Assembly (NCBI RefSeq): GCF_014697545.1
Contig: NZ_JACJSA010000007.1
Span: 62,001-126,000, forward strand
Source of the DNA: Oscillatoria sp. FACHB-1407
Lineage (GTDB): Bacteria; Cyanobacteriota; Cyanobacteriia; Elainellales; Elainellaceae
Direction of reading: 5' to 3'
DNA: 64,000 nt
Part shown: positions 8,468 through 10,072 of the stretch, piece after piece
Numbering within the stretch: position 1 is the stretch's first letter
How the letters are laid out: each line of letters begins with the position of its first letter
Made by a program: the position numbers and the translations under genes
The notes under the pieces: generated by a model
Database searches by the model: none
What the model was told of the DNA's origin: nothing
What the model saw: the letters and a program-made list of their open reading frames with translations, nothing else

Positions 8468-9060
8468 ATGCTTTCTGCTCCCTACATCTCTCGCCCTGCC
8501 GCTGAAGCGTTTCTGAGTGCGATCGCCTCTGCCCTCCAAGACCCCGCTCAATCTCCCGTCGTGTTTCACGTCTGGGGAACGGGTGGTGTAGGCAAATCGA
8601 CTCTACTCAACAAATTGATTGCCGAACACCCAGAGGCGGCAATTCCAGCAATTGACCAAAAGCCTGTCAAGTTTGGCGAAACAGAAGGAATCGATAGCCC
8701 GATTGAGTTAATGGGTGGTGTTCCAAACCTGTTGATAACCTCTGTAAGACCCCCTGTAGTCCCCCTTGGTAAGGGGGACGGCGACAGCCGGGGGTTAGTA
8801 GCAACAGATCTGAAACACTACCGAGTTAATGAAGAAGCTACATGGGCTATTGCTGGAGCAGTTTCCTCCGCCTGTGTTGCTCAAGCGAGATGTACTCAAC
8901 CTTACTCCCAAGCCTGATCCCTTCACAGAGCGGCATCAGCAGTATTTTGATACACTGCATCAGCTACAAACTCAGGCTGTAGATGGCAAAGGAGCGGCAA
9001 CGACTGAGCAAATCGCCATCGTCAAGAAGTTTGCTGGGCAAGCTCTTTCCTTTGGGGCAA
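8468..9060 (+). pseudogene. STAND-type P-loop ATPase fragment interrupted by a MITE
   Basis: The frame from ATG 8468 encodes an ATPase N-terminus: a Walker A loop GTGGVGKST at residues 37-45 in a FHVWGTGGVGKSTLLNKL context, then TEGIDSPIELM. At 8713 the frame meets an inserted 109-bp element plus a 9-bp duplication (118 bp, shifting frame by one). Removing it joins IELM directly to KKLHGLLLEQFPPP and the continuation PFTERHQQYFDTLHQLQT...VKKFAGQALSFGA in the next frame. The gene is then truncated at about 9052, where a 90-bp direct repeat begins. The remaining ATPase and sensor domains are absent. NB-ARC/STAND identity is inferred from the P-loop and length. Confidence 0.75.
8714..8822. mobile_element. 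109-bp MITE with 21-bp inverted repeats and 9-bp target duplication
   Basis: The element is flanked by exact direct repeats GAGTTAATG at 8705-8713 and 8823-8831. Its two ends are inverted repeats over about 21 bases (8714-8734 against 8802-8822) with four mismatches, beginning GGTGGTGTT on the left and GGTAGTGTT read from the right. The middle is a strong palindrome (GTCCCCCTT GGT AAGGGGGAC around 8758-8780). No coding capacity. Deleting element plus one target copy restores the host reading frame, which makes the insertion well supported. Confidence 0.85.
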
Positions 9061-9141
9061 AATGTGTGAGTTTTCAGATGAGTTCACTGTGTAGCTACAA
9101 GTCTCTCAGCCCCCTAAATCCCCCATTCTGGGGGGCTTTGA
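9052..9141 (+). repeat. 90-bp direct repeat, copy 1
   Basis: Begins TTGGGGCAAAATGTGTGAG and ends GGGGGGCTTTGA. Nearly identical to 9250-9339, with only two or three differences. It includes a minus-orientation copy of the 30-bp C/G-rich palindrome at 9109-9137. Its left edge marks where the ATPase pseudogene loses homology to its expected continuation. Confidence 0.8.
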
Positions 9142-9161
9142 GCTATAGGAGGCGGATCGGA

Positions 9162-9190
9162 AGTCCCCCAAGTTTGGGGGGTTGGGGGGC
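9162..9190 (+). repeat. 30-bp C/G palindrome copy
   Basis: AGTCCCCCAAGTTTGGGGGG followed by TTGGGGGGC, a diverged member of the family clustered between 9.1 and 11.1 kb. A separate motif, TGTGTATACACGGTAG, lies just downstream at 9222-9237 and recurs near 10878 and 18109. Confidence 0.6.
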
Positions 9191-9249
9191 AAATGCAAGA
9201 GTTTGAGGTTGATACAGGAGATGTGTATACACGGTAGCAATTTTGGAGG

Positions 9250-9339
9250 TTGGGGCAAAATGTGTGAGTTTTCAGATGAGTTCACTGTGTGTCTACAAGT
9301 CTCTCAGCCCCCTAAATCCCCCATTCTGGGGGACTTTGA
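9250..9339 (+). repeat. 90-bp direct repeat, copy 2
   Basis: Second copy of the 9052-9141 repeat, offset 198 bp. It contains the minus-orientation palindrome at 9307-9335. Nothing recognisable lies between 9340 and the DUF559 start at 9415. Confidence 0.8.
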
Positions 9340-9414
9340 ATTATTGTTTGAAGGCTACAGGTTGAGTGTATTCTCGTGGGAACTTTATCAATAACTCCAT
9401 GACAAATCTCGACT

Positions 9415-9777
9415 GTGCATCCTAAGCGTATTCGGGGAACGACTCCTAACATCGTTGCAGCCGCTCGACACCTGCGACAACGTCTTACAGTAGCTGAAAA
9501 GACTTTATGGGAAGCTCTGAGAAACCGACAACTAAATGGACTCAAGTTTCGCTGTCAACATCCTGTTAGTTCGTTTGTTGTTGATTTTTACTGCCTTCAA
9601 TATCGCCTTGTAATTGAACTAGATGGAGACATCCATGATCAACAAATTGACTACGATCAGGCTCGAACAGAGTACCTAAACCACTTGGGCTATCGAGTTA
9701 TACGGTTCCGTAATCACGAAGTCATGACCGACCTGAATCGTGTGCTCCAGCAAATTCTTGAAGCCACTCAGCCGTAA
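9415..9777 (+). CDS. DUF559 domain protein, Vsr/PD-(D/E)XK-like nuclease fold
   Basis: 120 residues, the standard size of stand-alone DUF559 proteins. The pattern is typical: LRQRLTVAEKTLWEALRNRQLNGLKFRCQHPV, then FVVDFYCLQYRLVIELDGDIH, carrying the acidic residues of the nuclease-like core, and a C-terminal GYRVIRFRNHEVMTDLNRVLQQI. The family is related to the very-short-patch repair endonuclease, but biochemical roles are mostly unproven. GTG 9415 is used as start; no in-frame ATG lies near. It sits in a repeat-rich island beside a broken ATPase gene, consistent with horizontal acquisition. Confidence 0.85.
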   Translation: MHPKRIRGTTPNIVAAARHLRQRLTVAEKTLWEALRNRQLNGLKFRCQHPVSSFVVDFYCLQYRLVIELDGDIHDQQIDYDQARTEYLNHLGYRVIRFRNHEVMTDLNRVLQQILEATQP

Positions 9778-9789
9778 ATAGATCGAAAA

Positions 9790-9973
9790 AGTCCCCCAAT
9801 TTTGGGGGATTTAGGGGGCGAACATTTGGGAAGTCCCCCAATTTTGGGGGATTTAGGGGGCGAACACCTCAGAAGTCCCCCAATTTTGGGAGATTTAGGG
9901 GGCAACCACCTCAGAACGCCTTCCAAGGTAAATAGATCGAAAAAGTCCCCCAATTTTGGGGGATCTAGGGGGC
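9790..9973 (+). repeat. Four copies of a 30-bp C/G-rich palindrome
   Basis: Copies at 9790-9819, 9832-9861, 9874-9903 and 9944-9973 follow the form AGTCCCCCAATTTTGGGGGA then TTTAGGGGGC. The first three are spaced 42 bp. Copies 1 and 4 are also preceded by the same TAAATAGATCGAAAAAG. Another plus copy is at 11082-11111, a diverged one at 9162, and minus copies at 9109 and 9307. CCCCCA..TGGGGG can fold into a hairpin. Confidence 0.85.
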
Positions 9974-10072
9974 GCGATTTAGGGAGCACGAGAAGCATTT
10001 GATTGGGTAGGAAAGGGCGCAGTTGGGAACATTAGATTTAATCGTTCACCACTATTAAATCTTGGAGCATCT

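Follow-up and report, generated by a model that had tools for sequence, protein, structure and literature searches.

What lies between the two halves of the NTPase gene at 8468-9059, which machinery could have put it there, and did its arrival disable the gene? The window, meaning the whole 64,000-nt stretch of DNA that was analysed, lies on contig C7 of an 8.13-Mb draft genome (G000; 66 contigs, listed as 100% complete). An earlier note, made from the letters alone, had described a short non-autonomous element that broke a possible conflict-related ATPase gene at a datable moment. We followed this description through the structure of the element, the fate of the gene, the transposases of the same genome, and the genomes of relatives.

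The 109-bp element and its copies

An exact 9-bp direct repeat, GAGTTAATG, occupies both 8705-8713 and 8823-8831 and flanks the sequence 8714-8822; at any one site such a repeat would arise by chance with a probability of about 4e-6. The features of this segment are as follows.

8705-8713, no strand: left copy of the target-site duplication (TSD), GAGTTAATG, an exact match.
8714-8822, no strand: MITE of 109 bp with IS1-type ends and without a complete ORF of its own, identical in sequence to the majority consensus that 39 copies of this length give.
8714-8734, plus strand: left terminal inverted repeat (TIR), GGTGGTGTTCCAAACCTGTTG, like the insA-side ends of the IS1 loci L064 and L133.
8759-8779, no strand: inner palindrome, GTCCCCCTTGGTAAGGGGGAC, with element positions 55-57 in its middle.
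8802-8822, minus strand: right TIR, GGTAGTGTTTCAGATCTGTTG in minus-strand reading, like the insB-side ends of L064 and L133.
8823-8831, no strand: right copy of the TSD, GAGTTAATG, whose ATG opens the downstream ORF 8829-9206.

The terminal 21 bases form inverted repeats that match at 17 of 21 positions, with mismatches at positions 4, 10, 13 and 15. The duplication and the four-mismatch ends are thus as the earlier note had given them, both copies of GAGTTAATG included. At 109 bp the element is shorter than the roughly 500 bp taken as the limit for MITEs, and it holds no complete ORF of its own. Read as RNA, one strand folds into a long hairpin of −50.8 kcal/mol, a figure without a shuffled control.

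A search of the genome with the element, which the earlier note had proposed, gave 92 first-look candidates, 40 of which were scored; these 40 copies, the one in the window among them, match at 95-100% identity, so the element is no one-off. The degenerate 21-base end with up to three mismatches matched the genome 130 times, against 3 matches for a reversed control pattern; the right end alone gave 59 matches and the left end alone 64, with 0 for the control in each case, these two counts overlapping since some sites fit both patterns. Sixty-one loci were read, of which 50 are copies with both ends under the set limits, and eleven (L077, L078, L080-L082, L098-L103) were dropped as one-ended, truncated or too degenerate. 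Thirty-nine of the 50 are exactly 109 bp long, and their consensus is the window copy itself; eight of these, the window's among them, are identical to it. The 39 vary most at position 87 and at positions 55-57, which lie at the centre of the inner palindrome. The window element is a member of a dispersed family with dozens of near-identical copies in its own genome.

Four longer copies of 365, 366, 412 and 539 bp (L076, L075, L073 and L074) were considered as an autonomous parent and rejected, as they contain other repeats instead. None of them is among the matches of the genome to the IS1 transposase profile PF03400, and InsA and InsB compared with these four and two other odd copies gave E 0.28 at best.

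Exact flanking duplications of 8-9 bp were found at 16 of the 50 two-ended copies of all lengths (15 of the 39 with 109 bp), where the chance of an exact 8-bp duplication is about 1.5e-5 per copy. They are absent from the other 34, one of which has 8 of 9 bases, and also from three of the eight copies identical to the window's. The 109-bp copies among the 34 are at most five bases off the consensus. Three causes of the loss were tried and set aside. Age was one: 109-bp copies with a TSD differ from the consensus at a mean of 1.67 bases (n = 15) vs 2.75 for those without (n = 24), which is not significant (Mann-Whitney p 0.054). As for flank swapping by inversion, deletion or misassembly, not one of the 50 copies showed an exact direct swap; two one-mismatch cases and one exact right-right pair were seen. 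Too few copies have ATCCTTT-like repeats nearby (within 80 bp, 8 of the 34 copies without a TSD vs 1 of the 16 with one). The 34 copies spoil an otherwise tidy picture, because many of them are nearly identical to the consensus; the source may be deletions beside the copies, recombination in which one product was lost, or mistakes in the draft assembly.

The interrupted NTPase gene

The sequence on both sides of the element encodes parts of one protein, and a further repeat lies just beyond it.

8468-8713, plus strand: remnant of a P-loop NTPase gene, first 82 codons, with the motif GTGGVGKST, from a KAP_NTPase match and the homologue alignment.
8832-9059, plus strand: gene remnant beyond the element, about codons 83-157, where homology to relatives stops.
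9086-9238, no strand: second dispersed repeat, core CCCCCTAAATCCCCC, just past the end of gene homology.

The encoded pieces read MLSAPY...GTGGVGKSTLL...IELM before the element and KKLHGLL...QALSFG after it, and the element divides the remnant into the ORFs 8468-8917 and 8829-9206. No stop codon has yet appeared in either of the coding pieces next to it. A single insertion would have struck the N-terminal P-loop region at GAGTTAATG and would have shifted the reading frame, because the 118 bp of the element plus one duplication are not a multiple of three. Removal of these 118 bp places IELM and KKLHGLL in one frame, in agreement with the earlier note, and relatives support the same junction. 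A search with the second piece matched 6 of 60 genomes, the window's own included; in the five others, the match falls within an open frame of 793-951 aa in four cases and within a 61-aa frame in the fifth. Three of these five homologues (from G045, G036 and G001) were aligned, and all cross the insertion junction without a gap, with LMKTLH, LMAKLY and LMEHLY against LMKKLH here. The uninterrupted relatives that the earlier note had suggested looking for were thus found by homology, and they represent the empty site at that level rather than that of a close strain.

The N-terminal piece matched KAP_NTPase over the cut-off and NB-ARC/nSTAND below it. The homologues matched AAA_16 (in three), NACHT (in two) and TPR (in one), all below the cut-off. 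The assignment of the gene to STAND-like NTPases is plausible on these domain matches. Against PADLOC, the best match of the window pieces was DolB at E 0.01 for the N-terminal piece, with none for the second; among the three homologues, one gave a partial match to LeoA (E 1.4e-5) and two gave none. Of the STAND-like, conflict-related ATPase in the earlier description, the P-loop NTPase is clear from KAP_NTPase, and the role in conflict found no convincing defence family in PADLOC.

Besides the insertion, the gene has suffered a truncation. The window holds no more than its first ~150 codons, with homology ending about codon 155, near 9059. A search of the genome with 647 residues of the G045 homologue (frame of 896 aa, taken up to its last ~250 residues) at E up to 0.001 matched only here, over residues 10-149, and the following ~500 codons were not found. 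Parts of the three homologues, searched at E up to 1, placed the rest of the gene nowhere in the window either. The second repeat gave 42 matches in its own search, many of them short; 11 further copies at 81-93% cover most of it (query 31-54 to 177-183). As judged by eye, its other copies carry inverted GGCTAC-GTGTA-type ends; it is probably a MITE-like element. In addition, a 95-bp direct repeat spans the gene break, 9052-9146 being repeated at 9250-9344 with 95% identity. The gene thus carries at least two lesions, because the insertion is joined by the loss of sequence beside another repeat family, and it is classed as a pseudogene remnant because the sequence beyond about codon 155 is lost in addition to the frame shift. 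The element is one lesion of this remnant.

These results do not sustain the 'datable disruption' of the earlier note, since the gene is also truncated, its next part was not recovered from the genome, a second repeat sits at the break, and nothing orders the events. It may be that the element entered an intact gene and the truncation came later, which would make the insertion the causal and recent lesion; the window copy equals the consensus with its TSD intact, and the flanking coding pieces are free of stops. We lean against this order all the same, as open frames are equally expected under a recent truncation and the search of the genome turned up no sequence for the stretch of the gene that should come next. 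Our preferred reading is a remnant lesioned twice, in either order.

Further observations concern the surroundings of this remnant. Sequences with GGCTAC-GTGTA-like ends were also seen by eye inside the element copies L074, L075, L076 and L078. A 120-aa ORF of the DUF559 type (endonuclease-like; Pfam E 6.9e-42) lies at 9415-9777 between repeats of the CCCCC...GGGGG type and gave DpdF at E 9e-4 and mREase_II at E 0.003 in PADLOC. At 9774-9985 a AGTCCCCCAATTTTGGGGGATTTAGGGGG-type repeat occurs four times, with start spacings of 42, 42 and 70 bp.

IS1-family elements and the class of the insertion

The ends, together with the duplication of 9 bp, first pointed to IS1 as the related family, and this presumption was then put to the test. 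The survey of transposases in the own genome covered the IS1 family (PF03400, DDE_Tnp_IS1) and found seven places, all over the cut-off; 2 of 14 control genomes also matched, namely those of E. coli and Methanosarcina acetivorans. Transposase matches and ends of the IS1 family were found on C11, C13, C31, C32, C33, C46 and C60, all of them contigs other than C7, and the parent transposase is accordingly outside the window, as had been claimed. The most informative locus, L064 on C32, is an IS1 element that measures 837 bp in full and encodes a 92-aa InsA and a 149-aa InsB. Its domains over the cut-off are PF03400 (146 bits, InsB), the PF12759 HTH (49 bits) and the PF03811 zinc ribbon (41 bits), and NF033558 scored 115.5 bits on InsB (over the cut-off) and 81.6 bits on the InsA piece alone (below it). 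L133 on C13, which goes with L065, is a deleted IS1 copy of 547 bp. Among the other loci, L065/L133 and L067 are deleted or interrupted, and L066, L069, L070 and L071 run to the end of their contigs. No MITE-like ends were read at L068 and L072, and no such end pair at the more distant IS1-domain loci L131 and L132.

The frame arrangement of these IS1 genes is recorded here separately. In L064 (437-1181), L128 and L129, insB is offset by +1 from the frame of insA, the change of frame falling across an A8G tract; a slip to A7, or one of two A, would join the two frames. The IS1 of E. coli uses a −1 frameshift on A6C.

Over 23 bases, the left end of the window element matches the insA-side end of L064 at 18 positions and that of L133 at 21, and its right end matches the insB-side ends at 19 and 18, respectively. 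The IS1 ends of relatives match at 15 and 19 bases (G007), at 14 and 18 (G148), and at 16-19 (G002, for which the comparison used the antisense strand of its genes). In the 17 bases beyond these ends only 1-5 match across the IS1 copies (1-3 in L064 and L133), and blastn of the interior against eight IS1 copies found no similarity, with a best E of 5.8. When the genome was searched with the element ends at up to three mismatches, IS1-family ends were retrieved besides the element copies at six places (C13 twice, C31, C32, C33 and C60; the match C10:204928 stands outside this count). Similar ends thus do occur beside transposase genes, where the earlier note had advised looking, and these transposases are of the IS1 family. 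The IS1 ends read in the own genome have CTGTGG, and no autonomous element with the CTGTTG ends of the window element was found in that genome; L128, an IS1 of G007, has a CTGTTG end yet differs elsewhere. Exact duplications were seen at two of the five two-ended IS1 copies of relatives, 8 bp at L134 (G002) and 9 bp at L129 (G148). No TSD was found at the other three (L127, L128 and L130), nor at the own-genome two-ended copies L064 and L133 (0 of 2).

Origin as a type I MITE, a derivative of an IS by internal deletion, was rejected, as no similarity to IS1 was found inside the TIRs. Because 18-21 of 23 bases agree with the IS1 ends while the interior shows no detectable similarity, the element is best described as an IS1-type MITE of type II, alike in its TIRs only. 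Type II prokaryotic MITEs are defined by conservation that is shared in the TIRs only (PMC10969869). The window element resembles that class in being short and non-coding, in a likeness to an autonomous IS limited to the TIRs, in its many copies and in the interruption of a gene; nothing basic differs, and the related IS is here of the IS1 family. Compared with IS1 itself, the MITE has nearly the same 23-bp ends as the own-genome IS1 copies, and its 8-9-bp duplications are like those at two IS1 relatives; it differs in lacking an own ORF and any detectable likeness to the IS between the ends. ISMae3 of Microcystis is an IS1-like element (PMC11448079). In the accessible portions of the literature searched, no IS1-family MITE in cyanobacteria was recognised, and unpublished status is not claimed. 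When likened by description rather than by sequence, the window element and Nezha are both cyanobacterial MITE families. Nezha is reportedly a MITE of cyanobacteria (Zhou et al. 2008, as cited in PMC10969869).

Two other origins were weighed. Families of DDE transposases other than IS1 also produce duplications of 8-10 bp, and a member of one could mobilise the element, its IS1-like ends being a convergence; the CTGTTG end, which was on no IS1 copy read in the own genome, would fit this. It is nevertheless very improbable, given that the search with the MITE ends itself retrieved the IS1-family ends at six places and that in L064 and L133 both ends, not one, are alike at 18-21 of 23 bases. The 109 bp might instead be a structural or regulatory palindrome of the REP/ERIC kind that serves the host and is no transposon copy, and the strong RNA hairpin (again the value without a shuffled control), the high copy number and the 34 of 50 copies without a TSD could be read in this manner. 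We give this origin still less credence, as the boundaries are sharp, 16 of 50 copies have exact 8-9-bp duplications, the reading frame is broken where homologues are continuous, and the ends are common with IS1 elements.

The IS1-type reading is therefore retained. The dispersed near-identical copies, the TIRs, and TSDs at a third of the copies examined bear out transposition of a non-autonomous element, as the earlier note had proposed, and judging from the ends it was probably mobilised by IS1-family transposases. InsAB' supplied in trans by an IS1 of the own genome, or by a lost closer relative, would bind the MITE ends of about 23 bp, and the IS1 InsAB' transposase would insert the MITE through a 9-bp staggered cut. 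The explanation as a whole, an IS1-type type II MITE moved by an IS1-family transposase together with a gene remnant lesioned twice, is in our judgment very probably correct.

Relatives of the element and implications

A search of 40 genomes, the own one included, matched the element in nine. Outside the own genome, near-full matches were found only in G007 (two copies, 86-87%) and in G002 (four copies, 73-78%); the four of G002 cover most of the length, and the matches of the other genomes are shorter stretches. Of the two copies in G007, both read by eye, L039 lies between exact 10-bp repeats, CAGTTGGGCA, and L048 has none. The left end with up to two mismatches was found in 4 of 291 genomes of the class, the own one included; the match L112 in G148 is MITE-like, with a right end that fits too, and the match L113 in G209 is not MITE-like as judged by eye. 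A collection of named genomes, which may leave out the own genome, gave one matching record, Cyanobacteria bacterium RU_5_0 (probably the same as G007), and a relative at 78% was found on a single plasmid, from Gloeocapsopsis dulcis. No copy was found in the phage records searched. Among the matches in the 40-genome and 291-genome searches, and in the 60-genome search for the gene, there is no second genome of the own genus. The family thus appears to have relatives in another genus of the same taxonomic family (87%) and on the Gloeocapsopsis plasmid (78%).

A wider consequence can be considered for the copies without a TSD. The IS1-type MITE may have grown to its dozens of copies while the 34 of 50 came to mark deletions or rearrangements next to them, made by IS1 transposase or by recombination; we regard this as unlikely. 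If true, the 109-bp element would have reshaped its own genome through such events beside its copies. As for the locus itself, annotation should treat the interrupted gene as a remnant, and not as a functional or recently knocked-out ATPase; the insertion site is clean, and homology furnishes its empty-site control. A dispersed repeat family of cyanobacteria is tied by its ends to a defined transposase family, IS1.
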